Positions 2,719-16,957 of a stretch of 21,756 nucleotides of DNA are shown piece by piece. Both the position numbers and the translations under genes were made by a program. The stretch comes from a virus. Within the stretch, counting starts at the first letter, position 1; every line of letters begins with the position of its first letter. The notes below the pieces were generated by a model. That model had not been told where the DNA came from and searched no databases. It was given only the letters and a program-made list of their open reading frames with translations. The stretch covers positions 1 through 21,756 of IMG/VR virus record IMGVR_UViG_3300032323_003312; one strand, written 5' to 3'.

Positions 2719-4842
2719 ATGCAATTACAAGACACCAAATCGTTACTTGCCAAACTAATGGCAACAGAAAACCTTGTGGTAGAACACCGTAAGGTACCAA
2801 CAGCTATGTTTGATGTAAAAAATCGTGTTTTGGTAATTCCAGTTTTGGATGATAAAATCGATGCTTATACTTATGACCTTTTTGTTGGTCATGAGGTTGG
2901 CCACGCACTTTATACTCCTATAGAAGGCATGCATAAAGCACGCAATGAAAAAATAAACTCATCCATTCTTAATGTTGTAGAAGATTCTCGCATTGAACGA
3001 AAAATCAAATACAAATATCCTGGTCTCCGAAATTCATTCGTTAAAGCTTATAAAGAACTTTACACCAAAGATTTTTTTGGTACTAACGGTATTGATTTGA
3101 ATGAAATGAATTTTATTGACCGCATCAACCTACATTGTAAACTTGGTGTAGGTCTTGGCATTAAATTCAATGCCGAAGAAAAGTCCTTACTCAATGAGGT
3201 AGAAACCACCCAAAACTATGATGAGGTTATTGATGTAACTAAGCGCATCGTGAAATATATGAAGTTGCAGGAAGAAGAGCGTAAATCCAAAATGTCTCCT
3301 GATGATGAACAGTATGATGAAGAAGATGATGACAGCAACGATGGATTTAATTCTTGGAACGATTTAGATGATTATGAGGAAGGCGAAGAATCTCAAGGTG
3401 AAAATGTTAAATCGGCACCAACAAACTCCAATGAAGTCGAAGAAAAATCTGAAGGCGAAGATGATGAGATAATCAATGGTGATGATCGATTTAACCACAA
3501 AGATGTAAAAGAAGATAACATTCGTTCATTTACAGATGAAGCATACAAACAAAACGAAAAGAAACTTTATGCTGAAAATGCAAAGAACTATGTTTATGGT
3601 AATGTTCCTAAATTTGATATGAACAAAGGTATCTTGTCTTACAAAGCTCTATACAAAAAATACAGAGAAACAATGGCCGAATATAATCGAAATGTAAACG
3701 ACCATACTCATTTTTTGAAGATGCGCCGAGAAACCAATAAAGTCGTTTCTTACTTGGTAAAAGAATTTGAGTTGAGAAAAAATGCTGATCAACTAAAACG
3801 TGCGTCAACTGCCAAAACTGGTGACCTTGATATGAAGAAAATATTTTCTTATCAATTCAATGATGATATCTTTAAGAAGATATCGGTTGTGCCTAATGGT
3901 AAATCTCACGGCCTAGTGATGTTTCTTGATTGGTCTGGTTCAATGTCAAATCATATTGAGAATACTGTAAAACAATTAATTTCATTGGTCATGTTTTGCA
4001 AGAAGGTAAATATTCCTTATGATGTGTATGCCTTTGCGACACCGGAATCTTATGAATCACATAATTATAGTATTACTCCAAAAGATGGTGATTTGGTTTC
4101 TAGGAACTTTTATCTGATGAATTTGTTATCAAGTAAAATGACAGCTGGCGAATTTACCTTTGCGGCTTCTTCTTTGGTCAAGATGTCCTTGTCTCCTCGT
4201 TATTTGCCTGGTTGGATGACAATGGGTGGCACACCCTTGAATGAAGCAACCATTGCAGCTATGGAGATTGTTCCACACTTTCAAAAACAATATAAGCTAC
4301 AAATTGTGAATACTGTATTCTTAACTGATGGTGAAGGTCACACAATTCGTTCTGTTTATAGTAAAACAGAAAATGGTCAGTTTACTACAAAAGGTGATAA
4401 TTACAGAGATCAGCTTGGTTTGGTAATTCGTGATCCGGTTACAAAACATCAAGAAACGGTTGAGAATATATATAGTTGTGCTTCACACACCGCTGCATAT
4501 GTTAAATTGTTGAAAGCTAAAACAGGATGTAATGTTCTTGGATTTTATGTAATTGCAAGTCGTGAATTTGGTCGTAAGTTGCATGATTTTTATCCTCGTG
4601 CAGCAAATCCTGATATTATTAAATCTAACTTTCGTAAAAATAAATATGCAGTCGTTAAGACAGCCGGGTTTGATGAGTACTATGTTTTGCGGTCTGAAGC
4701 ATTAGATACAGAAGAAGATGCTAGTTTTGAAGTTAAGGAAAATGCCACTACTCGTGGCCTTGTTTCGGCCTTCAGTAAATACACTGGTGGCCGTGTTGCC
4801 AATCGTGTAGTGTTAAACAGATTCATAGGATTAATATCATGA
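2719..4842 (+). CDS. CobT-like VWA protein with N-terminal HExxH peptidase-like domain
   Basis: The protein is 707 residues in three parts. Residues 1-190 hold HEVGH (58-62) followed by VEDSRIER (87-94), the layout of a zinc-metallopeptidase-like helix pair with Glu88 as a likely third ligand. Residues about 195-260 are a very acidic linker. Residues about 390-600 form a von Willebrand factor A domain with an intact MIDAS: DWSGSM (Asp404), Thr505 in GGTPL and Asp537 in LTDGEG. VWA proteins of this class (CobT, NorD, CoxE) work with a MoxR/CobS-type AAA+ ATPase, and such an ATPase is encoded at 15335. The substrate is unknown. Metal chelation for cobalamin is unlikely in a phage without other cob genes. 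The peptidase role is inferred from motifs only. It starts its own promoter cassette and overlaps the next gene by ATGA. Confidence 0.88.
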   Translation: MQLQDTKSLLAKLMATENLVVEHRKVPTAMFDVKNRVLVIPVLDDKIDAYTYDLFVGHEVGHALYTPIEGMHKARNEKINSSILNVVEDSRIERKIKYKYPGLRNSFVKAYKELYTKDFFGTNGIDLNEMNFIDRINLHCKLGVGLGIKFNAEEKSLLNEVETTQNYDEVIDVTKRIVKYMKLQEEERKSKMSPDDEQYDEEDDDSNDGFNSWNDLDDYEEGEESQGENVKSAPTNSNEVEEKSEGEDDEIINGDDRFNHKDVKEDNIRSFTDEAYKQNEKKLYAENAKNYVYGNVPKFDMNKGILSYKALYKKYRETMAEYNRNVNDHTHFLKMRRETNKVVSYLVKEFELRKNADQLKRASTAKTGDLDMKKIFSYQFNDDIFKKISVVPNGKSHGLVMFLDWSGSMSNHIENTVKQLISLVMFCKKVNIPYDVYAFATPESYESHNYSITPKDGDLVSRNFYLMNLLSSKMTAGEFTFAASSLVKMSLSPRYLPGWMTMGGTPLNEATIAAMEIVPHFQKQYKLQIVNTVFLTDGEGHTIRSVYSKTENGQFTTKGDNYRDQLGLVIRDPVTKHQETVENIYSCASHTAAYVKLLKAKTGCNVLGFYVIASREFGRKLHDFYPRAANPDIIKSNFRKNKYAVVKTAGFDEYYVLRSEALDTEEDASFEVKENATTRGLVSAFSKYTGGRVANRVVLNRFIGLIS

Positions 4843-5054
4843 TACAAGATATTGTAACATTTATAGGTGCTCAAGGACACCGTATTGCTGAAATTGGTTT
4901 CCTTGCCAGTTGTGTAGTAACCCCATTTTACATTGTGGATTTTATTGATAACACAACAGGATTTCATTTAACTAAATTCTTTAATAATGAAGAGGAAGCC
5001 GAAAAAGCTGCCAAAGAGTATGCTTTCGAAGGAATACTGGAGCATGTAAAATAA
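4839..5054 (+). CDS. Unknown phage protein, 71 residues
   Basis: The ATG overlaps the VWA stop (ATGA, 4839-4842), so translation is probably coupled. The product has a mildly hydrophobic middle (FLASCVVTPFYIVDFI) and an alanine/glutamate-rich helical tail (EEEAEKAAKEYAF). It is not recognised. The hydrophobic stretch is too broken to call a membrane helix with confidence. Confidence 0.62.
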   Translation: MIQDIVTFIGAQGHRIAEIGFLASCVVTPFYIVDFIDNTTGFHLTKFFNNEEEAEKAAKEYAFEGILEHVK

Positions 5055-5326
5055 TCGGCCTTGCGGATTCTGACGATTTTAGTCCAAAAAATATTGCTGA
5101 TGACTTGTTTGAAAGATGTAAACAAGCAAAAGTTTGGTACGTATATTGTTATATAGAAGAAGAATGGATGTCAAACGGTGTACCCATGCCATTTGATATA
5201 AGAATTGTTGATGGTATAGTTAGTTGCAAAGTTGTTTGTACCACCTATTCAGAAGCACAAAAAATCGTAGCCAATGTTTTACCCGTAATAAAATTTATAG
5301 AAGATCCAGAAATTGATAATGAATGA
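5051..5326 (+). CDS. Unknown phage protein without a standard start at its apparent N-terminus
   Basis: The first conventional start in frame is TTG at 5105, which lacks a ribosome site. The frame remains open and coding-like upstream: IIGLADSDDFSPKNIADDL reads back to 5051. A GGAG at 5039-5042 sits eight bases before ATA at 5051, so an ATA or ATC start is possible. A one-base slip near ATG-T-AAA-ATA (5044-5053) would give MKIIGLAD, which suggests a frameshift or an assembly error. The conserved-looking body contains AKVWYVYCYIEEEWMSNGVPMPF and a C-terminal acidic tail. Function is unknown. The stop overlaps the following MazG-like start. Confidence 0.6.
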   Translation: MIGLADSDDFSPKNIADDLFERCKQAKVWYVYCYIEEEWMSNGVPMPFDIRIVDGIVSCKVVCTTYSEAQKIVANVLPVIKFIEDPEIDNE

Positions 5327-5594
5327 TAAAGAAAAAGAAGCGTTACTAATCTTACAAGAAGAATGTGCTGAAGTGATACAAGCTGCATCCAAAGTGTTTC
5401 GTTTTGGTACGGAATCAAGATGGCCAACCGAAGAATCAGGAACCACATTAGAAGAACTGCAAATGGAAGTTGGTCAAGTATTGGCGATGATTGATATTTT
5501 GACAGAACAATGTGTGTTATCCGATTCTGCAATTAACGAAGCAAGGCAACATAAAAAAGAAAAACTAAAAATCTGGTCGAGTATTTACAGTTAA
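5319..5594 (+). CDS. MazG-like NTP pyrophosphohydrolase family protein
   Basis: The protein is 91 residues from ATG 5319, all helical. It has the EExxE signature of all-alpha NTP pyrophosphatases at Glu14, Glu15 and Glu18 (EECAEVIQAASKVFRFG), and a second helix LQMEVGQVLAMIDIL. Many phages carry this family with the second motif as ExGD; here it reads EVGQ (50-53), so one expected Asp is Gln. MazG enzymes hydrolyse NTPs or (p)ppGpp-like nucleotides, and phage versions are thought to reshape host nucleotide pools. The missing Asp makes catalysis uncertain. It overlaps both neighbours by a few bases. Confidence 0.82.
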   Translation: MNDKEKEALLILQEECAEVIQAASKVFRFGTESRWPTEESGTTLEELQMEVGQVLAMIDILTEQCVLSDSAINEARQHKKEKLKIWSSIYS

Positions 5595-5716
5595 TGGATA
5601 TCAGAGAACTACTACAATATTTGAAAAAAATTAGGTGTTGGACATTTAACGACACTATGGTTAGAAATTTAGTGGATGAATTGATTGCCAGACTAGAGAA
5701 ACAATTACCAAAATAG
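5594..5716 (+). CDS. Micro-protein, 40 residues
   Basis: Begins MDIRELLQYLKKIRCW with the ATG sharing its A with the previous stop (TAATG). It is helical and basic, with a C-terminal LVDELIARLEKQL amphipathic helix. It is not recognised. The stop codon lies at the base of the next hairpin. Confidence 0.55.
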   Translation: MDIRELLQYLKKIRCWTFNDTMVRNLVDELIARLEKQLPK

Positions 5717-5736
5717 TGTTGTACCAAAACAACACT
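5715..5736 (+). terminator. Perfect 8-bp GTGTTGT/ACAACAC hairpin
   Basis: AGTGTTGT (5715-5722) pairs with ACAACACT (5729-5736) around ACCAAA. This is the cleanest copy of the hairpin found beside most promoters in the window. It lies five bases before the -35 box. Confidence 0.65.
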
Positions 5737-5740
5737 GGTA

Positions 5741-5768
5741 TTGACAACCTCCTTGGTTGTGTTATAAT
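5741..5768 (+). promoter_or_regulatory. Sigma70-type promoter with dyad in the spacer
   Basis: TTGACA (5741-5746) and TATAAT (5763-5768) with a 16-bp spacer. A perfect dyad ACAACC-tcctt-GGTTGT (5744-5760) spans the end of the -35 and the spacer. The downstream leader TGAAAAGGAATTTTATTATG is shared in form with the 16604 and 17867 genes. Confidence 0.87.
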
Positions 5769-5796
5769 GGTACCATAATTGAAAAGGAATTTTATT

Positions 5797-5949
5797 ATGA
5801 GCAATATGAAGCGTTTAATGGAAAATATTATTGATGATTACTCCCGTGGTTACAGCGAATTTGAATTGGCTGAAAAATACGATTTATCGGTTGATGATGT
5901 GGTTAATATTATTGAACAATACTATAATATTTTGGATGAGGCAGCATAA
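5797..5949 (+). CDS. Small HTH-like protein, 50 residues
   Basis: Start ATG 5797 has AAGGA at 5784-5788 and a strong promoter directly upstream. Residues 19-43 (SEFELAEKYDLSVDDVVNIIEQYY) have the spacing of a helix-turn-helix like sigma region 4 or MerR/TetR recognition helices. Short proteins of this type are common in T4-like phages. A DNA-binding or RNA-polymerase-binding role is inference. The stop overlaps the next ATG. Confidence 0.65.
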   Translation: MSNMKRLMENIIDDYSRGYSEFELAEKYDLSVDDVVNIIEQYYNILDEAA

Positions 5950-6281
5950 TGACCAAATCTGGCGAAAAACTTTTATCGATACTTCCTTTCATTGAAGATT
6001 ATCAAAGGCACATAGAAAGTAACTATGCTCTAAATGCCAGAAATTGTGAGTATTCTCATGACTTGGGTTTCACCACAGGTTTTGAAGCTGGCACAAAATA
6101 TGTAAGGATTTTTCATTGGTATGATGATGGCAGTTCTCTCAAACAAAGAAGTTGCCACTCATTCGTTGATTATGAAGGTAACATATGGAAAGCGGCAAGT
6201 TGGAAATCACCAGCCAAAAACTTTCCCCGTGGTAATGTCAAGACGAAAGATTATGGTAATATTCGTTGGACTGGTTGTTAA
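5949..6281 (+). CDS. Conserved phage protein of unknown function, 110 residues
   Basis: The protein begins MTKSGEKLLSILPFIEDYQRHIESNYA. The second half contains KYVRIFHW, then HSFVDYEGNIWKAASWKSPAKNFPRGN. This C-terminal pattern (FVD..G.I.KAASWK.PAK..RGN) recurs in many unrelated phages as a hypothetical protein. No catalytic motif is recognised. It is co-transcribed with the HTH-like gene. Confidence 0.72.
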   Translation: MTKSGEKLLSILPFIEDYQRHIESNYALNARNCEYSHDLGFTTGFEAGTKYVRIFHWYDDGSSLKQRSCHSFVDYEGNIWKAASWKSPAKNFPRGNVKTKDYGNIRWTGC

Positions 6282-6303
6282 TTATATCATACTGTAGTAT
6301 AAT
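6275..6303 (+). promoter_or_regulatory. Probable promoter for 6320-7205
   Basis: TTGTTA (6275-6280) and TATAAT (6298-6303) with a 17-bp spacer. A dyad ATACT-gt-AGTAT (6289-6300) runs into the -10. It lacks the GTTGT hairpin of the other cassettes. Confidence 0.55.
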
Positions 6304-6319
6304 ATTTTAAAATGAATAG

Positions 6320-6511
6320 ATGATGAATTTCAGTGAATTTAACTTTTTTGGTATATCACTACAAGAATTAAACTTATTTTCGTTTGTTCTTGGAATGACC
6401 TTTGCTTTCTTCAACCAAGGTCTATTCGGTAAAAATATTGGCAAATATATTATATCATACTTTATATTACTCTCTCTGTGGTACGCTTTAAAATATCACA
6501 ACTCAATTTAA
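6320..6511 (+). CDS. Small membrane protein, 63 residues
   Basis: There are two candidate starts, ATG 6320 and 6323. Two hydrophobic segments are visible: about residues 18-34 (LNLFSFVLGMTFAFFNQ) and 43-58 (KYIISYFILLSLWYAL). It is probably a two-helix inner-membrane protein. It is not recognised. The stop shares its A with the next ATG. Confidence 0.6.
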   Translation: MMNFSEFNFFGISLQELNLFSFVLGMTFAFFNQGLFGKNIGKYIISYFILLSLWYALKYHNSI

Positions 6512-6603
6512 TGGATCAAAATATGGATACTAAATCAGTAGTAATTATTCTTATGTGTTTAATAGCAATTGCATCATACATTCAACATATGCACACACTA
6601 TGA
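6511..6603 (+). CDS. Single-helix micro-protein, 30 residues
   Basis: The product is MDQNMDTKSVV followed by a hydrophobic stretch IILMCLIAIASYI. It is linked on both sides by overlaps (TAATG at 6509, ATGA at 6600). The overlaps are the main support. A membrane peptide is likely, with function unknown. Confidence 0.45.
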   Translation: MDQNMDTKSVVIILMCLIAIASYIQHMHTL

Positions 6604-7205
6604 CACCAGAACAAATCAAACACCTAGAAGAACTCATAAACAAAACGGGTAAACGAGCTGAATCATTTGCCATGATGATGAATCATGCATTAAGTATTCA
6701 GAATCCACTTATTGTAGAAACTGGATGTGCTCGCCAAGAAAATAATTTTGATGGTGATGGTATGTCTACCATACTTTTTGATAAACTAGTCGAGTACCAT
6801 GGTGGAGAGTTTTATTCGGTTGATATTAATCCAGATAATGTCAAGTTCGCAACCGAACATTGCAAGACAGCCAATGTATTCTGTGGTGATTCAGTTTCAT
6901 TTCTATATAACCAGTCCAAATCGTGGGTTGCAAACAACCGAAAGATTGATGTTCTGTACCTAGATTCATATGATTTTGATTTAAACAATCCACACCCATC
7001 TTCATTACATCATGTCATGGAACTAGTTGCCATTATGCCTTCTCTAAAAGAAGGAACAATGATATGCGTAGATGATAATCCATTATGTGAAGATAGTAAA
7101 GGTAATTTAATTGAAATGGGTAAAGGTCTCTATGTGAAACAATTCATGGAACAGATTAAACGAGAAAGAATATACAACGGTTATCAATGGGTATGGAAAC
7201 TATGA
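6600..7205 (+). CDS. Class I SAM-dependent methyltransferase-like protein
   Basis: The protein is 201 residues from ATG 6600 (ATGA overlap), preferred over an upstream in-frame ATG at 6555 inside the preceding gene. It has a Rossmann pattern: VETGCAR (39-45) at motif I, FYSVDIN with Asp75 as the acidic residue after strand 2, GDS (96-98), and VLYLDSYDFD (118-127) at motif IV. This resembles the Methyltransf_24-type family. The target is unknown; phage members are often linked to sugar, small-molecule or protein modification. The C-terminus (YNGYQWVWKL) looks complete. Confidence 0.72.
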   Translation: MTPEQIKHLEELINKTGKRAESFAMMMNHALSIQNPLIVETGCARQENNFDGDGMSTILFDKLVEYHGGEFYSVDINPDNVKFATEHCKTANVFCGDSVSFLYNQSKSWVANNRKIDVLYLDSYDFDLNNPHPSSLHHVMELVAIMPSLKEGTMICVDDNPLCEDSKGNLIEMGKGLYVKQFMEQIKRERIYNGYQWVWKL

Positions 7206-7260
7206 CAACTTTCACTGGCGAAACGCAACACTAGACATATTATATACTTTGGATAATACA

Positions 7261-7347
7261 ATGACCTTTATTCTTTCCGGCGCTTCCGGGCTTTCCCTCC
7301 AATATCTACCAGTTATCACCACTTTTATCATATTAATCCCTCTTTAA
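7261..7347 (+). CDS. Possible 28-residue hydrophobic micro-protein
   Basis: The frame reads MTFILSGASGLSLQYLPVITT then FIILIPL. It fills the only gap between 7206 and 7390 and is more C-rich than its neighbours. TAGACA (7232-7237) and TAATAC (7254-7259) upstream could be a weak promoter. No good ribosome site is seen, so it may not be translated. Confidence 0.3.
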   Translation: MTFILSGASGLSLQYLPVITTFIILIPL

Positions 7348-7390
7348 AGTATTTTGAGCGATTCAATACATCCTTAAACATTATCCATTA

Positions 7391-7861
7391 ATGCCAGATA
7401 AAAAATCGAATCTTGCCAAAGGCCGACATAGTTTCGATGCCGACATAGGTGGAACTCTGGTACCCTTCCTTAACAGAAATATATCAGAATATCCCACAGA
7501 GGCAGGTGCAGTTAAATTTGAACTAGTTCCTGTAACTCAACAAAAAGACTTGATGATTAATCATGCGAGAATGTATGCTCAGCAAGAATATGACCGTATT
7601 ATGGAATTGGTTAGTGTATTACAAAAACAGGCTGATGATATTAAACGCAGACTGAATGTCACGGATGCTGTACATGCTGCTGTGTATCAGTTTTCACCAG
7701 TGATGGGTAATATCTATTGGTTAGTATGGGACAAAAGAAAACACCACACATTATTAACACAGAATGGTCCAAATGATTGGACGAGTGGTGCTCCTGAAGA
7801 TTATGAATATCAGACTCAGATAAAATATATGGGTGACCACACATGGATGGAGATAAACTAA
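7391..7861 (+). CDS. DUF2452 domain protein
   Basis: The protein is 156 residues and shows the whole DUF2452 layout: N-terminal NLAKGRHSFDADIGG, then a long helix of about residues 52-95 with QKQADDIKRRLNVTDAVHAAVYQFSPVMGNIYWLV, and the C-terminal GDHTWMEIN matching the usual ADHTWE ending. The family is widespread in bacteria and phages with no assigned biochemical role. It starts 185 bases after the methyltransferase. No strong Shine-Dalgarno is visible ahead of the ATG. Confidence 0.85.
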   Translation: MPDKKSNLAKGRHSFDADIGGTLVPFLNRNISEYPTEAGAVKFELVPVTQQKDLMINHARMYAQQEYDRIMELVSVLQKQADDIKRRLNVTDAVHAAVYQFSPVMGNIYWLVWDKRKHHTLLTQNGPNDWTSGAPEDYEYQTQIKYMGDHTWMEIN

Positions 7862-7862
7862 T

Positions 7863-8167: not shown

Positions 8168-8214
8168 AAATCCAAGAAAAAGAGTTTGGGCCAGGATAAC
8201 TTTTTTTATTATTC

Positions 8215-9254: not shown

Positions 9255-10028
9255 ATGAAATTATTAAGCACAGGTAATCCCAAAACCTTAAAGGGAATGA
9301 AGCAAGGTTATAATACCTATATTCTACATTTAGCACCAGCAACATTATCTGGACATAATACCTGTCCAAAAGCTACCAAAGGCTGTATTAATGCTTGCCT
9401 GAATACTGCTGGTCGTGGTGGTATGTTTAAAAAAGGTGAGTTTACTAATAATATCCAAAAGGCTCGTATCCGTAAAACAGAGTTATTCTATGATAATCGG
9501 GAAGAGTTTATGTCCTTATTATATAAAGATATTACATTGGCGATTAAGCAGTCAGCTAAACTAGGATTAATTCCAGTATTTCGTTTAAATGGTACCTCTG
9601 ATATTAGCTGGGAAAAGTATCCAGTTACCATCGGTAATATCACTTATTCTAATATATTCGCCGCTTTCGGTCATATTCAATTCTATGATTATACCAAGGT
9701 ACTAGGTCGTAAGGTATCTAATATCAGTAATTATCATTTAACCTTCAGTATGGCAGATGGTAATTATCTAGATTGTAAGCAAGCAGTATTAGAAGGATAT
9801 AATATCGCTGTCGTATTTGGTATTAAGAAAGGTACCAAAATGCCTGAGAAATTCTTTAATAGTAATATGACAGTATATAATGGCGATGAAAGTGATTTAC
9901 GCTTTCTAGATCCAAAGAATAGTATTATCGGTCTATATGCAAAAGGTAAAGCTAAGAAGGATACTAGTGGTTTCGTTAAGTATCCCGTAGGTAATGATTA
10001 TCAATATACTATTAAGATAGCTGCATAA
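9255..10028 (+). CDS. Phage Gp88-family conserved protein
   Basis: The protein is 257 residues. It has the hallmark opening LLSTGNPKTLKGMKQGYNT then LHLAPA, the Cys cluster CPKATKGCINACLNTAGRGG (residues about 37-57), KARIRKTELF and RLNGTSDISWE. These are signatures of the 'gene product 88' family found in many phages, with no firmly assigned function. The conserved Cys residues suggest a metal or redox site, which is inference. The length looks complete. The start ATG 9255 follows AAAGG (9244-9248). T/A-ending codon use matches the two genes upstream. Confidence 0.85.
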   Translation: MKLLSTGNPKTLKGMKQGYNTYILHLAPATLSGHNTCPKATKGCINACLNTAGRGGMFKKGEFTNNIQKARIRKTELFYDNREEFMSLLYKDITLAIKQSAKLGLIPVFRLNGTSDISWEKYPVTIGNITYSNIFAAFGHIQFYDYTKVLGRKVSNISNYHLTFSMADGNYLDCKQAVLEGYNIAVVFGIKKGTKMPEKFFNSNMTVYNGDESDLRFLDPKNSIIGLYAKGKAKKDTSGFVKYPVGNDYQYTIKIAA

Positions 10029-10047
10029 CCTACTGATATTGTTTAGT

Positions 10048-10074
10048 ATAACCTTAGAGATGCTCTGAGGTTAT
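10048..10074 (+). terminator. Strong 12-bp hairpin after the Gp88-like gene
   Basis: ATAACCTTAGAG (10048-10059) pairs with CTCTGAGGTTAT (10063-10074) with one U-G wobble and an ATG loop. It lies 20 bases after the stop. The following bases (CAATAAG) are not U-rich, so it may protect the mRNA 3' end instead of terminating. Confidence 0.6.
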
Positions 10075-10105
10075 CAATAAGTGATAATGGTAAAAGCGCT
10101 CAGGA

Positions 10106-10199
10106 AACCATGCGGATTGTTATTGGATGATACGGTGGATGGCAGATACAGACTAAGCTTCGCTTGGTACTCATATCCTGCGAGTAATCCTGCGTGGTT
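10106..10199 (+). ncRNA. Candidate structured RNA, multi-stem
   Basis: Bases 10106-10118 pair with 10186-10199 in a 13-bp closing stem (AACCATGCGGATT with AATCCTGCGTGGTT, one U bulge at 10191, one G-U). Inside, GCAGATA (10142-10148, read as g142-a148) pairs with TATCCTGC (10174-10181, one C bulge), and above it ACTAAGC (10152-10158) pairs with GCTTGGT (10162-10168) with a UUC loop. An 8-base repeat ATCCTGCG occurs at 10175 and 10187. GC content is visibly higher than in the flanking AT-rich sequence and no credible open frame covers it. It is not recognised as tRNA, a group I core or a known ribozyme. Structure was derived by hand pairing. Confidence 0.5.
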
Positions 10200-10220
10200 A
10201 TTACTATTAGTTATAATATA

Positions 10221-10250
10221 CACTTTATGACACTTTTTCACACTTTCCAA
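10221..10250 (+). repeat. Three 10-bp tandem CACTTT repeats
   Basis: CACTTT starts at 10221, 10231 and 10241, each unit exactly 10 bases with a variable tail. The spacing equals about one helical turn, as in iterons or cooperative protein-binding sites. Confidence 0.6.
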
Positions 10251-10274
10251 TCGGTTTCGCTAGGTTGGTGTGAA
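10237..10274 (+). promoter_or_regulatory. Leader hairpin ahead of the 10304 gene set
   Basis: TTCACA (10237-10242) and CCAATC (10247-10252) pair with GGTTGG (10263-10268) and TGTGAA (10269-10274), with a 4-nt bulge and a 10-nt loop. It lies about 17 bases before the AGGAGG site of the next gene and could affect its expression. It shares bases with the third CACTTT repeat. Confidence 0.45.
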
Positions 10275-10303
10275 TATTTGGTATGAAATACAGGAGGTAT
10301 TAT

Positions 10304-10378
10304 ATGATATATTTAACAGGTTTATCTTTACTAGTGGTTTTTATCACTATTAACTTTATTATAGGAGTATTATTATGA
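10304..10378 (+). CDS. Single-helix membrane micro-protein, 24 residues
   Basis: MIYLTGLSLLVVFITINFII is almost entirely one hydrophobic helix. It has a very strong AGGAGG ribosome site (10292-10297) and an ATGA overlap with the next gene, both supporting translation. The function is unknown. Confidence 0.5.
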   Translation: MIYLTGLSLLVVFITINFIIGVLL

Positions 10379-10578
10379 GTGCATTATATAAACTGGTTCG
10401 TATTGAAAAGAATCAATCAGAATTAACGGTAGAATTAAATGAGAATCAGCTGGAATTGATTGCAGCTGCATTAAATGAATATGGTGATATAATCTATGAT
10501 GTAGAATCTCCTTATTATGAGGAGAAGGATGCGAATGATTTATCCGATTTACAGTTTAAATTAAATGGAGTAGTATAA
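10375..10578 (+). CDS. Small acidic phage protein, 67 residues
   Basis: The product begins MSALYKLVRIEKNQ and contains ELTVELNENQLELIAAALNEYGD, then an acidic tail. The core is similar to that of the next gene, so the two may be paralogues. It overlaps the genes on both sides. It is not recognised. Confidence 0.68.
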   Translation: MSALYKLVRIEKNQSELTVELNENQLELIAAALNEYGDIIYDVESPYYEEKDANDLSDLQFKLNGVV

Positions 10579-10754
10579 TGGTTAAAATAGAATTAACTGA
10601 ACAGCAATTAGAGAGTTTAATTGATGTTCTTGAATATGTGAGTGATTCCGAATATGAGCATTATGTGGAGTATCTGGAAGAAGGTAATGGTGGTGATAAT
10701 CACATTTATACCAAGGTGGCAGAGTTAATGAATTTATCGTGGAGTAAAGTATGA
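10578..10754 (+). CDS. Small acidic phage protein, 58 residues, paralogue-like to the previous gene
   Basis: MVKIELTEQQLESLIDVLEY parallels the VELNENQLELIAAALNEY of the 10375 gene, followed by an acidic region rich in Glu and Tyr. The ATG shares a base with the preceding stop and the end overlaps the next ATG (ATGA). No function is assigned. Confidence 0.6.
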   Translation: MVKIELTEQQLESLIDVLEYVSDSEYEHYVEYLEEGNGGDNHIYTKVAELMNLSWSKV

Positions 10755-10924
10755 GCATTAGTAATATCGAAAGAATGGTAGAAGCATTGGTTCGTGATGA
10801 AATGAATATGGTGCGTTCTATGGGTATGGAAGAATTAGATTCTTATATTGAATTTAATCTCCGTCAAAAACTTGAATCAATGACAGATAATGAAATTATT
10901 GAAGAATATGAAAGGTTGGCATAA
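10751..10924 (+). CDS. Small helical phage protein, 57 residues
   Basis: MSISNIERMVEALVRDEMNM continues through YIEFNLRQKLESMTDNEIIEEYERL. It is acidic and wholly helical, and met-rich. It is coupled by ATGA to the gene before it. It is not recognised. Confidence 0.6.
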   Translation: MSISNIERMVEALVRDEMNMVRSMGMEELDSYIEFNLRQKLESMTDNEIIEEYERLA

Positions 10925-10926
10925 TA

Positions 10927-11010
10927 ATGGTAACCGTTTTAATTGTGATAGTTGTGTTATTATTGTTTATCTATGCGTTTTATAACTTTATCAAAGATAC
11001 TTTTGATTAA
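10927..11010 (+). CDS. Single-helix membrane micro-protein, 27 residues
   Basis: MVTVLIVIVVLLLFIYAFYNF is a typical transmembrane helix followed by a short charged tail (IKDTFD). It starts two bases after the previous stop. No strong ribosome site is seen, so coupling would be needed. Confidence 0.45.
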   Translation: MVTVLIVIVVLLLFIYAFYNFIKDTFD

Positions 11011-11022
11011 AGGTTAGTGATG

Positions 11023-11087
11023 GTTGACCGGTTTGGTCGACTATTATAAAGGATTCTTGCCATTTTTAATAGAATCCTTTATAATAG
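11023..11087 (+). terminator. Hairpin pair including a perfect 17-bp stem
   Basis: GTTGACC (11023-11029) pairs with GGTCGAC (11035-11041). Directly after it, CTATTATAAAGGATTCT (11041-11057) pairs perfectly with AGAATCCTTTATAATAG (11071-11087) around a 13-nt loop, followed by TTCTTTTA. This is the most convincing intrinsic-terminator-like structure in the window, and its right arm contains a promoter. Confidence 0.7.
11057..11085 (+). promoter_or_regulatory. Promoter embedded in the 11041-11087 hairpin
   Basis: TTGCCA (11057-11062) lies in the loop and TATAAT (11080-11085) in the right arm, with a 17-bp spacer. The gene at 11107 follows with AGGAG at 11097-11101. Terminator and promoter share the same bases. 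Confidence 0.55.
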
Positions 11088-11106
11088 TTCTTTTATAGGA
11101 GATATT

Positions 11107-11229
11107 ATGACCTATTATGTTTGTGATGGTTTACTTTTCGATTCATATGCTTTAGTGTGTGCCTATGCGGATGAGCAATATCAACGCTTTGGTACGATTT
11201 TAGGTATCGAAAAAGTGGTTAAAGTGTAA
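11107..11229 (+). CDS. Micro-protein, 40 residues
   Basis: MTYYVCDGLLFDSYALVCAYADEQ reads as a soluble alpha/beta fragment and ends FGTILGIEKVVKV. The ribosome site AGGAG is six bases upstream of the ATG. It is not recognised. Confidence 0.55.
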   Translation: MTYYVCDGLLFDSYALVCAYADEQYQRFGTILGIEKVVKV

Positions 11230-11231
11230 TA

Positions 11232-11261
11232 ATGGTAGTTTATTTAAGGAGTAAAGTATGA
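11232..11261 (+). other. Nine-codon upstream frame overlapping the next start
   Basis: MVVYLRSKV ends in an ATGA overlap with the 11258 gene, and the downstream gene's AAGGAG site lies inside it. It may couple or meter translation. It is too short to call a gene. Confidence 0.3.
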
Positions 11262-11428
11262 GTAAATTTAAAGTAGAAATTGCTTCAACAATCTATTATG
11301 AAGCAGAGGTTGAAGCGGAATCAATAGAGGATATTCATAATCAATTTGATAATGGTGATTTAGATTTCACTACATGGGAAGAAATTGATTTAGAATCGAG
11401 TGTTTTTAATATAGTAGGAGTTGAATAA
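11258..11428 (+). CDS. Small acidic protein, 56 residues, DpnD/PcfM-like pattern
   Basis: MSKFKVEIASTIYYEAEVEAESIEDIHNQF has the beta-strand then helix layout common to small DpnD/PcfM-type and other antirestriction-neighbour proteins, but similarity is weak. The ribosome site AAGGAG (11245-11250) precedes ATG 11258. The ending is FNIVGVE. Function is unknown. Confidence 0.62.
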   Translation: MSKFKVEIASTIYYEAEVEAESIEDIHNQFDNGDLDFTTWEEIDLESSVFNIVGVE

Positions 11429-11820: not shown

Positions 11821-12011
11821 AATGGTCGGCAACGATTATTACCTTAATCGGTGCGGTATTAACGGCAGCTAATTTATATCCTTATAATATCTACGCATTT
11901 AATATCGGTTGTATATTATGGATAGTATGGGGTTATAAAATCAAAGAAAATTGTATTATATTGGTTAATTCCGCATTATTGGCCATATATTTGGTCGGTG
12001 CGTTGTTTTAA
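11802..12011 (+). CDS. Phage membrane protein, 69 residues, three hydrophobic segments
   Basis: Hydrophobic segments lie at about residues 8-24 (WSATIITLIGAVLTAAN), 29-44 (NIYAFNIGCILWIVWG) and 50-68 (CIILVNSALLAIYLVGALF). The layout AFNIG..LW..WG..I.....I...N..LL..Y is shared by a common small phage membrane family and recalls half-transporter PQ-loop proteins. A transport role is speculation. The stop lies in the loop of the next GTTGT hairpin. Confidence 0.7.
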   Translation: MSNSILKWSATIITLIGAVLTAANLYPYNIYAFNIGCILWIVWGYKIKENCIILVNSALLAIYLVGALF

Positions 12012-12080
12012 TACAACACTTTGGTAATCTTTGATATTAATCGACCAAGTATTGTTATCGGAGTATGCCAAAGTGGTTGT
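12002..12080 (+). promoter_or_regulatory. GTTGT/ACAAC hairpin plus a longer overlapping dyad
   Basis: GTTGT (12002-12006) pairs with ACAAC (12013-12017) around TTTAAT. The same right arm also belongs to a longer dyad: ACAACACTTTGG (12013-12024) is complementary to CCAAAGTGGTTGT (12068-12080) with one extra G. The two structures exclude each other, and the second ends in the -35 box. Confidence 0.5.
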
Positions 12081-12104
12081 GGTATAGTCCAATACCTGTA
12101 TAAT
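12077..12104 (+). promoter_or_regulatory. Sigma70-type promoter for the 12132-15269 gene run
   Basis: TTGTGG (12077-12082) and TATAAT (12099-12104), 16-bp spacer. The spacer carries GGTAT-agtcca-ATACC (12081-12096), a perfect 5-bp dyad. The leader GATTAGGAG precedes ATG 12132. Confidence 0.75.
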
Positions 12105-12131
12105 GGTTTCATTAATTGATTAGGAGCATAT

Positions 12132-12413
12132 ATGTTGAAATTTAAAAATATAGCAAAAGTTGGTGATATTATCCGTGCATACGATTTTAAACCGTGTGCT
12201 GGTCGTGATGATGCTTTTATTGAAGGTATTGTGATTGATGCCGACAATAATGAGCAAGGTTTTAGTGCCTTTAAGGTTGAAGTTACTGCTGATAAGTTTA
12301 AAAAATACGAAACTAAAGCAAGTCCTCGTAACCGTGTTGGCGCAATAATGTATGTACCGTTTCAAACCAGTTTTATGGAATTTGATTTTCGTGTGATTAA
12401 CTTATCGGAGTAA
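12132..12413 (+). CDS. Conserved phage protein, 93 residues
   Basis: The product has the small beta-rich pattern VGDIIRAYDF..CAGRDDAFIEGIVI, then NRVGAIMYVPFQTSFMEFDFRV. A protein with the same layout (GD.IRAYDF..R....CFIEG.V) is frequent in T4-like and other large phages. The fold may be a beta barrel. Function is unknown. It leads a run of short, tightly spaced genes. Confidence 0.75.
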   Translation: MLKFKNIAKVGDIIRAYDFKPCAGRDDAFIEGIVIDADNNEQGFSAFKVEVTADKFKKYETKASPRNRVGAIMYVPFQTSFMEFDFRVINLSE

Positions 12414-12415
12414 TT

Positions 12416-12607
12416 ATGGAAATTGGTAGAGCGTGTGATATTTTGAGTGAAATGGCCAAAGAACGCAACATTGGTGTTTTGGAGGTTTTACAAGAATGGG
12501 ATAAATTCGCCAATGATGAAGGTGAAGCATCTCATTTTTGGCCAGACCAAAACACCGCTTGTCGTGTGTTTATGCGTATGGGTCGTAAATTTTTTGAACC
12601 TGTTTAA
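12416..12607 (+). CDS. Small phage protein, 63 residues
   Basis: MEIGRACDILSEMAKERNIGVLEVL opens with two helices, and HFWPDQNTACRVFMRMGRKFF follows. It starts two bases after the previous stop with GGAG at 12408-12411. It is not recognised. Confidence 0.65.
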   Translation: MEIGRACDILSEMAKERNIGVLEVLQEWDKFANDEGEASHFWPDQNTACRVFMRMGRKFFEPV

Positions 12608-12619
12608 TAGGAAATTATT

Positions 12620-12814
12620 TTGAAAAGTAATGTTAATTTTTTCATCAAAGAGATTATCAACGAAGAAATGGCTGGAGTTCAAAAGCTTCGTAAGTCAGAG
12701 TTGATTGAGATGGTTGGTTATTTAATGGAAAGAAATTTGCGTGAATTGTCCAATGAATCGATTATCGACATTTATGAAGAAACTTTTAACACCTTTGTAA
12801 GGAGTGCTAGATGA
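12620..12814 (+). CDS. Small phage protein, TTG start, 64 residues
   Basis: TTG at 12620 has AGGAAA (12608-12613) at good spacing and gives MKSNVNFFIKEIINEEMAG. An ATG at 12668 is possible but has a weaker site. The rest is a helical, charged protein (LRKSELIEMVGYLMERNLREL). The 3' end overlaps the next ATG (ATGA). Confidence 0.6.
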   Translation: MKSNVNFFIKEIINEEMAGVQKLRKSELIEMVGYLMERNLRELSNESIIDIYEETFNTFVRSAR

Positions 12815-13128
12815 ATTTAGATTATGAAAAAAAGAATCGTTTAATGAGCCTGATATTGGAACAATATACTACACCTGCAGGATTTAGGTCAAAGTTTAAA
12901 GGCGTACCAATGAGGCATTACGAAGAAGTAAAACCATTTATTGATTTCACCAAATATTTTGTAATGTATCGTGGTCCACGACCAAACTTTGGCCAAGCAT
13001 CTACTCGTAAGCGTGATGCTCATTCCTTTGATGTTTATGAGCGTGATGCACGAGTGGTGAGTGAGAATCGAATTGAGCGTGAAGCATTTTTGCGTGGCGT
13101 TCAATGGGCAAATAACAGGAGTCATTAA
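12811..13128 (+). CDS. Unknown phage protein, 105 residues
   Basis: MNLDYEKKNRLMSLILEQYTTPAGFRSKF is followed by a basic, aromatic middle (FTKYFVMYRGPRPNFGQASTRKRDAHSFDVYERDA). No catalytic motif is recognised. Arg-rich composition suggests nucleic-acid or protein contact. ATGA and TAATG overlaps join it to both neighbours. Confidence 0.66.
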   Translation: MNLDYEKKNRLMSLILEQYTTPAGFRSKFKGVPMRHYEEVKPFIDFTKYFVMYRGPRPNFGQASTRKRDAHSFDVYERDARVVSENRIEREAFLRGVQWANNRSH

Positions 13129-13373
13129 TGAGTGATAATCTTTTAGAAAATTTAAGTGTGGATGAATTACAAAGTTATTTGTCCGATTTCCATAAAGATT
13201 ATTATGGTTTTCGTCCTCGCCATTACAATAATGAGGATTGGAATAATAAACAATTCTTAATTGGTTGTATTAACGGTATTCATGATGCTATGGATGAATT
13301 AAAGAAAACACCAAAAGGCCGTGAACAGTTGCGTGCTGAAGGTTGGGTAATTGACGAAAGTGAGTTTGTATGA
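13128..13373 (+). CDS. Unknown phage protein, 81 residues
   Basis: MSDNLLENLSVDELQSYLSDFHKDYYGFRPRHY contains an ELxSYLxDFHKDxYGFRPR pattern seen in many short phage proteins. The rest is helical (FLIGCINGIHDAMDELKKTPKG). Function is unknown. It overlaps both neighbours. Confidence 0.7.
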   Translation: MSDNLLENLSVDELQSYLSDFHKDYYGFRPRHYNNEDWNNKQFLIGCINGIHDAMDELKKTPKGREQLRAEGWVIDESEFV

Positions 13374-13546
13374 GTTATGATTCGGATTATGAAAGTGTTT
13401 ACATGGTTGAGTTTGATTCTGGTAAAACCATCCATGTGCAATTCTTTGATGTTGAAGAAGTAAAAGAATATTGTGCTGATAACCATGCTGGTCAGGTTAT
13501 CAAAACAATCTATAAAGAAGTTTATAATTTTTGTGAAGAAAATTGA
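13370..13546 (+). CDS. Small acidic phage protein, 58 residues
   Basis: MSYDSDYESVYMVEFDSGKTIHVQFFDVEEVKEY forms a beta hairpin then helix pattern. It starts inside the end of the previous gene (ATGA at 13370-13373). It is not recognised. Confidence 0.62.
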   Translation: MSYDSDYESVYMVEFDSGKTIHVQFFDVEEVKEYCADNHAGQVIKTIYKEVYNFCEEN

Positions 13547-13559
13547 TTAGGAATTTATT

Positions 13560-13967
13560 ATGATGAGAGCTGGAACCTACTATGTTGGTGATTTATGTTA
13601 TGTGATGCATGGTGAATGGGATGAAGCTTGTAAATTGATGTTTGCAGGCCGTGATGACCATGGATGCAATCAAGGTGAATTCAATCTATCAGATGGCCGC
13701 AGGTTTGCCATTTATTCTACCGCATATGGTGATGGCACCTACTATGACCAGAATGGTCGTAGTTATTGGGTAGATTCTGGTTCAATTGGTTGTATCCTAT
13801 TGAGTGATATTGATGTCGACCATCCAGAGAATGATTTTGGTGGCGGACAAACGATTACATTCAATCAGGATTTTTATACTGGCTACCAAGATGGCAAAAT
13901 TATGTTTCACAATGTGAGTATTGATACTGATCCTGAAGATGTTGATGAAGAAGAAGATGAGTATTAA
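13560..13967 (+). CDS. Conserved hypothetical protein of the GTYYVGDLCYV type, 135 residues
   Basis: The product begins MMRAGTYYVGDLCYVMHGEW; the second Met (13563) is an alternative start. The N-terminal GTYYxGDLCYVM..EWDE pattern, then RFAIYSTAYGDGTYYDQNGRSYWVDSGSIGC, is a widely distributed phage and bacterial family with no assigned role. The C-terminus is very acidic (DTDPEDVDEEEDEY). The leader GATTAGGAATTTATT resembles other cassette leaders, but no promoter is visible. It overlaps the next gene by eleven bases. Confidence 0.78.
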   Translation: MMRAGTYYVGDLCYVMHGEWDEACKLMFAGRDDHGCNQGEFNLSDGRRFAIYSTAYGDGTYYDQNGRSYWVDSGSIGCILLSDIDVDHPENDFGGGQTITFNQDFYTGYQDGKIMFHNVSIDTDPEDVDEEEDEY

Positions 13968-14187
13968 TAAAATACGAAGCACACAACCAGCCAAAGGTGT
14001 AAAAGGTTATATTATACGAGTTCTTGACAGTTATGTGTTTCGTGTATATAATGAGGACTTTACTTTTGTTGATTATGATATTTTGCATTATGATTTAGAA
14101 ATACAAATTTTAGAAACAGATGCAATGTTATACCGTAGTGAGTTTGGTAATTACCTTGATTATCCACCAATTGATGAGATGAAATAA
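13957..14187 (+). CDS. Unknown phage protein, 76 residues
   Basis: ATG 13957 (GAAGAAGAAG upstream) is chosen over one at 13921 inside the preceding gene. The product is MSINKIRSTQPAKGVKGYIIRVLDSYVFRVY then an acidic tail (DLEIQILETDAMLY..). A YIIRVLDSYVFRVYNEDFTFVDYDILHYDL segment is a common short phage domain. Function is unknown. Confidence 0.65.
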   Translation: MSINKIRSTQPAKGVKGYIIRVLDSYVFRVYNEDFTFVDYDILHYDLEIQILETDAMLYRSEFGNYLDYPPIDEMK

Positions 14188-14513
14188 TGAGTGATTATAC
14201 ACCAGATAGATGGATTGTGGTGAAGATTACAACCGATAAAGAAATGTTATACAAGGTATTTGCCTGTTGGTATGGCGGATATGCCGGCTCTGATTCATGG
14301 CAAATGAATAGTGGTATCAAAAGCGTAGAAGAAGATGAAACGCATTTTATGTTCAATGGATATTCTGGTAGTGTATATCGATGTCATAAAAACACATACG
14401 GCACCAGTGGTTATGGGGGCAGAGTTTTACAAAACTTTATTGATAAGGCAGATAACAAAATTGAAATACTGCCTGGCGGTACAAATTGGAAAGAATTAAA
14501 ATATGACTGTTAG
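14187..14513 (+). CDS. Conserved phage protein, 108 residues
   Basis: MSDYTPDRWIVVKITTDKEMLYKVFACWYGGYAGSDSWQMNSG is followed by DETHFMFNGYSGSVYRCHKNTYG. The pattern YKV.A.W.GGY..GDSW..NSGI and F.G.SGSVY.C.K..YG recurs in many phages as a hypothetical. It is probably a small beta-rich protein. Function is unknown. Confidence 0.77.
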   Translation: MSDYTPDRWIVVKITTDKEMLYKVFACWYGGYAGSDSWQMNSGIKSVEEDETHFMFNGYSGSVYRCHKNTYGTSGYGGRVLQNFIDKADNKIEILPGGTNWKELKYDC

Positions 14514-14868
14514 ATATTCAACCAATTGGATGGGTGTGGCAAACCTTCAATGGTATAGAGACCGTGGCCTAACCAAACGAGTGACTAAAACATTAACAGA
14601 AGATTCTCAATTAACCGGCAGAAAAGCTGGTGAATCATTTGAATATGATGAAATTACACAAGAATATTCATGTGGTCGTATTGATTGTCGTGGTGAGGAT
14701 TTAGGACGATATGGTGATGAGATTGGTGTTGATCCAATGAAATCGGAAGATTGGTATCGATTTGGTAAATGGTTAGGTACTGTTGAAACGGATGATTTGT
14801 GGACAATCGAGCAATTGGTTGAAATGTATGAAAGAACAAATCCAAAAATTGAATGGTGGGTAGAATAA
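14503..14868 (+). CDS. Conserved phage protein, 121 residues
   Basis: MTVRYSTNWMGVANLQWYRDRG begins with the widely shared VRYxTNWMGP pattern, and EYSCGRIDCRGEDLGRYGDEIGVDPM followed by EDWYRFGKWLGTVETDDLWT completes it. This family occurs in many large phages, usually unannotated. A tail with IEWWVE ends it. Overlaps with both neighbours suggest coupled translation. Confidence 0.77.
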   Translation: MTVRYSTNWMGVANLQWYRDRGLTKRVTKTLTEDSQLTGRKAGESFEYDEITQEYSCGRIDCRGEDLGRYGDEIGVDPMKSEDWYRFGKWLGTVETDDLWTIEQLVEMYERTNPKIEWWVE

Positions 14869-15269
14869 TGGGAATTAGTGCATACAAAGAAGTAACAGAA
14901 TGGGATAATTCAGATTTTGTGGTACCCAATCACACTTACCTATTTGATGGCAAGTCCAATATTCTGGCATACACCAAGGCGAGTAATGATGAGCTGGTGA
15001 TATTACCTAAACCAGTAAAGATTGATACCCGTAGGCGTAAGTTCGAGAAGGTCAAACACAAGGCACTGGATGCGTATGGTGCAACGGTGGTGGTTGATGT
15101 ACCTAACCTTGACAATGCGCCTCATTGGTCAGTTAAGAGTGATTCTGGCAAGACCTATACAGTCACCTTAGAATCTGGTAAGTACCAATGTAATTGTGTA
15201 GGATATGCGTACCGGGGCGCCTGTAAGCACTCAAAAAGTGTTGCTTCCACACAACAGTCTAGCAAATAA
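14868..15269 (+). CDS. SWIM zinc-finger domain protein
   Basis: The protein is 133 residues from ATG 14868. Near the end, CNCVGYAYRGACKH (residues 108-121) has the CxCx(n)CxH spacing of a SWIM zinc finger (Cys108, Cys110, Cys119, His121). The first 90 residues have no clear domain. SWIM proteins bind DNA or proteins. In bacteria they often sit beside MoxR ATPases and VWA proteins, and the AAA+ gene of this phage starts only 65 bases downstream. The 3' end overlaps a weak GTTG/CAAC hairpin (15239-15256). Confidence 0.82.
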   Translation: MGISAYKEVTEWDNSDFVVPNHTYLFDGKSNILAYTKASNDELVILPKPVKIDTRRRKFEKVKHKALDAYGATVVVDVPNLDNAPHWSVKSDSGKTYTVTLESGKYQCNCVGYAYRGACKHSKSVASTQQSSK

Positions 15270-15272
15270 TGC

Positions 15273-15300
15273 TTGTGTTTTCCTCTGGTACCTGTATAAT
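15273..15300 (+). promoter_or_regulatory. Sigma70-type promoter for the AAA+ gene
   Basis: TTGTGT (15273-15278) and TATAAT (15295-15300), 16-bp spacer, with palindromic GGTACC (15287-15292) ahead of the -10. The -10 is followed by GGTAC. The ATG at 15335 follows a GTGAAAGG leader. Confidence 0.75.
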
Positions 15301-15334
15301 GGTACATTAAATTATGTTTAAGTGAAAGGCGTAT

Positions 15335-16501
15335 ATGTTGAATAAAAACGGTGTTGCTTTCGTAGAAGCGGCAGAAAAATTGTATGGCATCGGTGCGGTA
15401 TTGAACCGAGATAATATTGCTCATGTAGTGAGTGAAACTGATGTGCCATATCCATATTGGTTTGTAACCAAAACAGAATATCGTACCGGTAATCGTGGCG
15501 AATATTTGTTACCGAATATCGGTACTAAAAAATCAAAAGCATCGGTTGTTGCAAAAGAGCCAGAATTAGAAGTTGCATTGCAGGCGCAATCAGCACAAGT
15601 GCTTGAGTTCCGTCAACCAAAAATGATTGATGAATCTGATTCGGCAATTCCTGCAAAGTGGCCTGATTATGTGCCGTTTGGTTTCTTCAAAGATATGCGA
15701 AACATTATCAACAGCAAACAATTCTATCCTGTATTCGTTACAGGTTTATCAGGCAACGGCAAGACCTTGATGGTTGAGCAAGTGTGTGCTGAATTGCAGC
15801 GTGAGTGTATTCGTGTGAATATCTCCATTGAAACTGATGAGACCGACCTGCTTGGTGGTCCTACTCTTATCAATGGCAATGTGGTCAATCGTGATGGTCC
15901 TGTATTGCAGGCTATGAAGAAAGGCGCCGTGTTGTTGATTGACGAAGTAGACCGTGGTTCTAATAAGTTGATGTGCTTGCAAGGCATTCTCGAAGGCAAA
16001 CCATACTACAATAAAAAGACCGGCGAAGTAGTAACACCAACCAAAGGTTTCACCGTGATTGCCACCGCCAACACCAAAGGTCGTGGTAGTGAAGAAGGTC
16101 GTTATCTATCACAAGTGCTTGATGATGCCTTCTTGGAACGATTCCCAATTACGGTAGAACAGGAATATCCTGATGCCAAAACTGAGAAAAAGATTCTTAC
16201 ACCACTAATTGATGATGTGGATTTTGTTGAGAATTTATGCCAATGGGCAGATGTGGTTCGCCAAACATTTGACCAAGGTGCAGTTGATGAGATTATCTCT
16301 ACTCGCCGATTGGTACATATTGCCAAGGCGTATGGCATCTTCAAAGACCGCATGAAAGCGATTGAGCTTTGTGTGAATCGTTTTGATGCCGAAACCAAAA
16401 TGGCATTTTTAGATTTGTATTCAAAAGTCGATGCGACAGTAGAATCACCAGCGAATACAAGTACCACAGTTGCCAGTGCCGAAACACCGGTACAACAATA
16501 G
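15335..16501 (+). CDS. cobS: CobS/MoxR-like AAA+ ATPase
   Basis: The protein is 388 residues. After an N-terminal region of about 110 residues comes one AAA+ module: Walker A GLSGNGKT (137-144), Walker B VLLIDEVDR with Asp203/Glu204, sensor 1 at Asn246 (TANTKG), and an ERF arginine-finger segment. The order and spacing fit the CobS/MoxR group that remodels partner proteins, often with a VWA cofactor. Phage copies are usually annotated CobS, though no cobalamin pathway is implied here. Possible partners are the VWA protein at 2719 and the SWIM protein at 14868. The C-terminus is low complexity (Ala/Thr/Val). It has its own promoter. Confidence 0.9.
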   Translation: MLNKNGVAFVEAAEKLYGIGAVLNRDNIAHVVSETDVPYPYWFVTKTEYRTGNRGEYLLPNIGTKKSKASVVAKEPELEVALQAQSAQVLEFRQPKMIDESDSAIPAKWPDYVPFGFFKDMRNIINSKQFYPVFVTGLSGNGKTLMVEQVCAELQRECIRVNISIETDETDLLGGPTLINGNVVNRDGPVLQAMKKGAVLLIDEVDRGSNKLMCLQGILEGKPYYNKKTGEVVTPTKGFTVIATANTKGRGSEEGRYLSQVLDDAFLERFPITVEQEYPDAKTEKKILTPLIDDVDFVENLCQWADVVRQTFDQGAVDEIISTRRLVHIAKAYGIFKDRMKAIELCVNRFDAETKMAFLDLYSKVDATVESPANTSTTVASAETPVQQ

Positions 16502-16522
16502 TGGTAAACATCCAAGGACTGG

Positions 16523-16551
16523 TTGCCAACCAACCATCCTTGTGTTATAAT
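16523..16551 (+). promoter_or_regulatory. Sigma70-type promoter with imperfect dyad
   Basis: TTGCCA (16523-16528) and TATAAT (16546-16551), 17-bp spacer. CAAGGA (16513-16518) and GGTTG (16521-16525) are complementary to CAACC (16531-16535) and TCCTTG (16537-16542), a dyad that covers the -35. The leader TGAGAAGGAATT precedes the ATG. Confidence 0.78.
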
Positions 16552-16603
16552 AGTAGTTCAAGTTGCATTTTATTTTATTAATTTATTGAGAAGGAATTAC
16601 ATC

Positions 16604-16957
16604 ATGGCATTAACAGTTCGCAAAGGCAAAATCAACCGTCACGAGAAAATCACTCAGGTATTATTGAGTGGCAAACCAGTATCACCTGACGAGATTGCAA
16701 CCGTATTCAAAGGCACCGACCAAGAGTCTGTTTTGTATCGACTCTCAACCAACATCTACAACATTCGTAAAGATGGTGGCATCGTCAAAGTGATTAAATC
16801 TGGCCGTAAGGTGACAGGTTATCAGCTCGTAAACTTTACCGAGTTCGATGCTAATGGTCGTTACAAAGGCGTCACCAAAGCAGCTGCACCAGTGAAATCA
16901 GTAGTAAAAGCTGGCAAGGCAGTTGACCAATCCCAACCTGCAGAATTAGCAGCCTAA
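16604..16957 (+). CDS. Winged-helix/HTH-like protein, 117 residues
   Basis: ATG 16604 is used because it follows the promoter and an AAGGA site (16591-16595). Residues 13-65 have helices then a beta-wing: KITQVLLSGKPVSPDEIATVFKG, VLYRLSTNIYNIRKDGGIVKVIKSGRKVTGYQLV. This is the spacing of a winged helix-turn-helix. The Ala/Lys tail is flexible. A DNA-binding role is likely, as a regulator linked to the AAA+ gene, but this is inferred from the pattern. It is followed by a long structured leader of the next gene. Confidence 0.74.
   Translation: MALTVRKGKINRHEKITQVLLSGKPVSPDEIATVFKGTDQESVLYRLSTNIYNIRKDGGIVKVIKSGRKVTGYQLVNFTEFDANGRYKGVTKAAAPVKSVVKAGKAVDQSQPAELAA

Follow-up and report, generated by a model that had tools for sequence, protein, structure and literature searches.

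A MoxR/CobS-like ATPase and a VWA protein with a predicted zincin-like head form a conserved gene pair in T4-like phages

The viral record IMGVR_UViG_3300032323_003312, positions 1 to 21,756, is a 21.8 kb viral contig of a T4-like phage, referred to here as the window (the whole stretch of DNA that was analysed). A T4 RNase H-type gene and a DUF6433 gene, found among its many small open reading frames (ORFs), mark it as such. The window encodes a CobS/MoxR-like AAA+ ATPase and a VWA protein with a predicted metallopeptidase-like head, and both belong to families that occur together in hundreds of sequenced marine cyanophages and also in pelagiphages. The AAA+/VWA pair noticed in the original prediction is real and supported, while the ternary conflict system that was proposed around it, with a SWIM zinc-finger protein as the third part, is not. 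On balance, we favour the view that a MoxR-type motor works with its VWA partner to remodel, and probably to cut, a target tied to DNA replication, recombination or late transcription. The pair itself is widespread and partly published, and the protease reading contradicts the published CobST label. Our literature search was limited in extent, and the same reading may have been proposed elsewhere.

The VWA protein (2719..4842; all features given here lie on the plus strand) has 707 residues, arranged as a predicted zincin-like head, an acidic linker and a VWA domain, and it matches PHROG_459 ('peptidase') over its whole length (E=2.7e-198). Across 31 relatives, which are 29-88% identical to the window protein, only 44 of the 707 positions are invariant. 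These include H58, E59 and H62 of the motif HEVGH (HExxH; residues 58-62, 2890..2904), N85, E88 and D89 of the motif NVVED (residues 85-89, 2971..2985) and the five residues of the metal ion-dependent adhesion site (MIDAS), namely D404, S406 and S408 of DWSGS (residues 404-408, 3928..3942), T505 (4231-4233) and D537 (4327-4329). Because they fall within so small an invariant set, neither HExxH nor MIDAS is a chance motif. The HExxH..N..ED set is also invariant across 41 N-terminal domains, bacterial ones included. With H58, E59, H62 and E88, the last a candidate third zinc ligand, the protein shows the HExxH motif and downstream glutamate by which gluzincins are recognized. The expected VWA protein with an intact MIDAS and an HExxH..E head is thereby borne out.

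Structure prediction agrees with this assignment. In the AlphaFold2 model of the N-terminal domain (predicted local distance difference test, pLDDT, 88; predicted template modelling score, pTM, 0.83), HExxH lies on a helix (residues 49-65) that follows three strands, and E88 lies on a second helix (81-99). The leading Foldseek matches of the head in the PDB are selecase, jannalysin, abylysin, ArdC, IrrE/PprI, BlaR1 and myroilysin, which are zinc metallopeptidases or their relatives; each is individually weak (best E=0.084). Together, the model and these matches give good support for a zincin-like fold of the head, short of proof. The original prediction had named an HExxH helix buried in a non-zinc fold as one outcome that would count against it, and the head is instead modelled as zincin-like. 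The minigluzincins (selecase, jannalysin, abylysin), IrrE/PprI and ArdC stand alone; we know of none with a VWA domain or an AAA+ partner. Fold matches of the VWA domain in the PDB include NorD of the NorQD complex and MDN1. When the VWA family was compared with PDB sequences, nothing useful came up. Ahead of the VWA domain lies a finger-like segment (about residues 357-396, 3787..3906) with conserved G368, Y378, F385 and K395, which by analogy with NorD may serve as a pore finger.

The ATPase (15335..16501) carries the Walker A motif GLSGNGKT (15743..15766). Its similarity to Pfam AAA_5 (62.8 bits against a cut-off of 22, E=4.4e-17) and to PHROG_249 (E=5e-109) places it among the MoxR-like AAA+ proteins with Walker motifs, as had been predicted, and a PDB sequence search retrieved NorQ, CbbQ, CobS and midasin chains. 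PHROG_249 and PHROG_459 are both common in T4-like cyanophages. By tblastn, 463 phage records encode the VWA protein and 805 encode the ATPase, and the two sets share the same cyanophage groups. Among whole contigs related to the window, 18 extend 13 kb or more upstream of the ATPase gene, and all of them contain the VWA gene; the ATPase records without it all have less than 12.4 kb upstream and are therefore uninformative. Two CobS-like ATPase matches adjoin the VWA gene in one locus (L119:1781-2677 and 4210 onward), which may reflect a duplicated or interrupted gene. CobS-like ATPases are also encoded by Staphylococcus and Listeria phages, at a distant level of about 25-30% identity; at the phage K locus, the upstream frame that was checked showed no HExxH-VWA partner.

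In the window, the VWA gene lies about 10.5 kb upstream of the ATPase gene. This split, which the original prediction had regarded as unusual, is real, and comparison with relatives shows it to be typical. In most related contigs the gap is 11-23 kb; in G026, G028 and G033 it ranges from 16 to a few hundred bases, and in one 236 kb record (G014) it is about 94 kb, if the molecule is circular. The two genes are adjacent or nearly so in cyanophages, pelagiphages, Ochrobactrum and Stenotrophomonas phages, and in some freshwater phages. Since they are neighbours in these other phages, their separation is a trait of the freshwater clade to which the window belongs and not of the whole family. Strict co-occurrence and this adjacency argue, at the level of sequence, that the AAA+ and VWA proteins form one system of the MoxR-VWA type. 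Full-length matches to the same two families identify the pair with the 'peptidase' and 'cobS' genes of cyanomyoviruses, from which the clade of the window differs by the distance between the genes, by the frequent presence of the SWIM gene and by the nearly constant presence, near the ATPase gene, of a small protein of the kind encoded at 16604.

The surroundings of the pair point to DNA metabolism. In cyanophages, pelagiphages and an Ochrobactrum phage the gene order is gp47-gp46-[VWA]-[AAA]-gp45-gp44, and the pair is flanked by gp55, gp47 and gp46 on one side and by gp45, gp44, gp62 and regA on the other. Similar gene clusters occur outside phages: the order is AAA-ssb-bet-exo-DUF3150-VWA in an IncC plasmid, VWA-toprim in an IncHI2 plasmid and VWA-AAA-dnaE in a Pectobacterium element. 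In fifteen VWA proteins from bacteria and plasmids the H-E-H-N-E-D columns are invariant, and most of their loci have a P-loop ATPase gene no more than about 1-4 kb away. As in the phages, an AAA+ gene accompanies the HExxH-VWA gene in these loci, and the protein families match at 99.6% in profile comparison (E=9e-25). The plasmid and bacterial loci differ in having an additional DUF3150 gene, in the ssb-bet-exo genes that stand between in IncC, and in their low identity to the phage proteins; in the IncHI2 VWA protein HExxH is kept and the downstream ED was not seen. The conjugative plasmids examined (L261, IncC; L262, IncHI2) carry AAA+, DUF3150 and HExxH-VWA genes, which in IncC flank ssb-bet-exo, and about 3,900 plasmid records contain an ATPase of this kind. 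The metallopeptidase-VWA family DUF2201_N (PF13203) was considered as a direct relative and rejected, as one phage-type protein reached only E=3e-4, below the Pfam cut-off, and profile comparison gave 8%.

Small unnamed genes separate the VWA and AAA+ genes in the P-SSM7 and S-PRM1 loci (L185, L265). At a further locus (L202:10211-10756), which resembles cyanophage P-TIM40, the intervening gene encodes a PHROG_624 'DNA binding protein'; such a component next to the two genes would be consistent with a role in replication or transcription. This last locus is a 188 kb contig filed as Nonlabens xiamenensis (NZ_RMVE01000006.1) that has a T4-like gene order and encodes a protein 100% identical to one of P-TIM40 (188.6 kb), and it appears to be phage DNA contaminating a bacterial assembly.

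Taken as a working mechanism, the 15335 protein would form an AAA+ ring, on which the 2719 protein would dock through its VWA domain and finger-like segment. The N-terminal zincin-like domain and the MIDAS of the latter could bind the target; ATP hydrolysis would then move the VWA partner and so remodel the target, which the zincin head would probably cleave. Ring formation, docking and remodelling are proposed by analogy with NorQD, given that the VWA domain matches NorD and MDN1 and the ATPase matches NorQ and CobS. In NorQD, the finger enters the MoxR pore, the VWA domain rotates, the linker of the partner is stretched and the target is remodelled (PMC13036017). The docking logic is likely shared with NorQ-NorD and with CbbQ-CbbO, the other MoxR-VWA chaperone considered, whose CbbQ chain is matched by the phage ATPase; the phage pair may act on a different client. 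Proteolysis is suggested because the catalytic-type glutamate is invariant. Many phages carry the pair within the cassette for DNA replication, recombination and late transcription, and plasmids have a comparable gene set in their recombination or replication clusters; the client therefore probably belongs to one of these phage processes or stands in its way. Several observations weigh against this account. No Foldseek match of the head in the PDB falls below E=0.001, and model confidence is low for the finger segment. The replication context is only partly kept in the clade of the window, where an RNase H-type gene lies just upstream of the VWA gene and the ATPase gene sits among small variable genes, so that this context is weak there. 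The gene context in T4-like phages may, moreover, merely be an inherited position.

Two other readings keep the pair as a working unit. In one, the same AAA+/VWA machine would only remodel: the HExxH head would be structural or metal-holding and non-cutting, and the client would be opened or metallated in the manner of NorQD or CbbQO. NorQD, the best-studied relative, does remodel without cutting (PMC13036017), and the VWA domain resembles NorD and MDN1; however, E59 is invariant together with the ligands, which would be needless in a purely structural zinc site, and true CobT functions without any HExxH motif. We regard a pure remodeller as rather unlikely. The other reading is the published one, in which the pair is viral CobST and the peptidase label a mistaken annotation (PMC8651126); phage CobS and CobT would join the CobN of the host, insert cobalt and raise the supply of vitamin B12. 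A CobN gene is indeed present in the Prochlorococcus genome searched, and the phage VWA protein is remotely related to CobT through bacterial intermediates. In profile comparison, the bacterial and plasmid family that matches the phage VWA family also matches true CobT (99.8%, E=3.5e-30), and three of its members pass the Pfam CobT cut-off, whereas the phage family compared directly with CobT gives only 20.8%. The curated CobT models (TIGR01651, PF06213, PF11775) gave no hit with the VWA protein of the window, while a true CobT control scored 786 bits against a cut-off of 759, and the ATPase scored 61.5 bits against the 558.55 of the CobS equivalog TIGR01650. The phage ATPases group into a single clade of their tree, separate from true CobS. 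The large subunit CobN was not found in any of 18 phage records. The pair is also carried by Pelagibacter phages, whose host, to our knowledge, lacks de novo B12 synthesis. A further argument, that a Nonlabens host lacks CobN, was dropped, since the contig on which it depended, described above, is probably contamination. Aerobic CobS-CobT and the phage pair thus share an AAA+ partner, an N-terminal domain and a VWA domain, but HExxH is lacking in true Rhodobacteraceae CobT. By its sequence, the phage VWA protein is a CobT relative that keeps a putative zinc-type site which CobT does not have, so that 'mistakenly annotated as a peptidase' looks too strong; the direction of change would be a loss of HExxH in CobT. 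A viral cobaltochelatase accordingly appears improbable to us, and the pair is read here as a zincin-VWA machine.

The conflict or anti-defence reading, in which AAA+, VWA and SWIM proteins form a three-part system, depends on the SWIM gene. This gene (14868..15269) lies 65 bases before the ATPase gene in the window, with a start supported by homologues that open with MGISAYKE, and its product contains the zinc motif CNCVGYAYRGACKH (15189..15230), which follows the CxCx(n)CxH pattern of SWIM zinc fingers. Of 93 matched ORFs, 86 keep this motif, CxCx8CxH; the remaining seven match mainly the N-terminal part of the query. Pfam SWIM (PF04434) is passed by a distant homologue (L175; 22.2 bits, cut-off 19.6), the window protein itself having no Pfam hit. 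About residues 8-70 of the protein also occur in ORFs without the SWIM motif (L176-L182) and may be a separate module. Placement and motif are therefore as originally described, but a role as third working part is not upheld by the co-occurrence of the three genes. Of the 34 ATPase loci that extend 8 kb or more upstream, 16 have SWIM there (median gap 684 bases); like the other locus counts given here, this one depends on pattern-based retrieval and deduplication. The distance of SWIM from the ATPase gene runs from 2 bp in one relative (G035) to about 18 kb or more. In the contigs of 157, 172 and 175 kb, which contain the AAA+/VWA pair, no SWIM gene was found, and the cyanophage, pelagiphage and related loci that were read showed no SWIM motif next to the pair. 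SWIM as an obligatory third part was rejected on this distribution and distance; the gene is an accessory one that belongs to the same variable region and preserves its zinc motif well. PADLOC defence models gave a sole, marginal match in the window proteins, of the ATPase to IetA (E=0.0024, 15 bits), and a defence or anti-defence label by model was rejected for want of an informative match. Our limited literature search brought up no relevant work on a SWIM-MoxR-VWA system or on DUF3150. The closeness of SWIM and ATPase genes in the window and in G035, and the antirestriction protein ArdC among the fold matches of the head, speak for such a system. However, cobS ranks as one of 25 cyanophage core genes (PMC3037559), which is more in keeping with a general role in phages than with an optional gene of an arms race, and we consider a three-part conflict system highly improbable.

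A closer neighbour of the ATPase gene is the small helix-turn-helix or winged-helix-like protein encoded downstream of it (16604..16957). At 65 of 72 loci a gene of this type follows the ATPase gene within 1.5 kb, with a median gap of 68 bases, and 47 positions are invariant among 13 relatives. Its placement and conservation hold, whereas the winged-helix assignment is weak, Pfam HTH_20 being reached by 4 of 13 members with a best E of 0.008; a PDB search gave no relative of note. All four proteins named in the original prediction are confirmed in existence and position. Elsewhere in the window, a GP88-family protein (9255-10028) is followed by a region of about 1.4 kb (10029-11420) with no ORF longer than 67 residues, no tRNA and a high GC skew. 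An HNH endonuclease with a weak NUMOD4 match (17110-17577), a WYL_2-tailed protein (18120-18824) and a calcineurin-like phosphoesterase (20258-21133) are also encoded.

The core of the interest lies in the clash between the accepted label, under which databases list the pair as vitamin B12 enzymes, and an invariant head for which a zincin-like fold is predicted. The gene cobS is currently listed as a viral auxiliary metabolic gene for vitamin B12; if the pair is instead an AAA+ metallopeptidase machine, ecological readings based on B12 need revision. The invariant H58 and E59 make the protease question directly testable. As a tentative proposal for the wider family, the cobS and peptidase genes of T4-like marine phages could encode an AAA+-driven zincin-VWA protease whose client belongs to replication, recombination or late transcription; plasmids of the IncC and IncHI2 types could use a machine of the same kind, and CobT could be a branch in which the protease head has decayed. 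If true, phages would have in common with conjugative plasmids an as yet uncharacterised machine linked to DNA replication or recombination.

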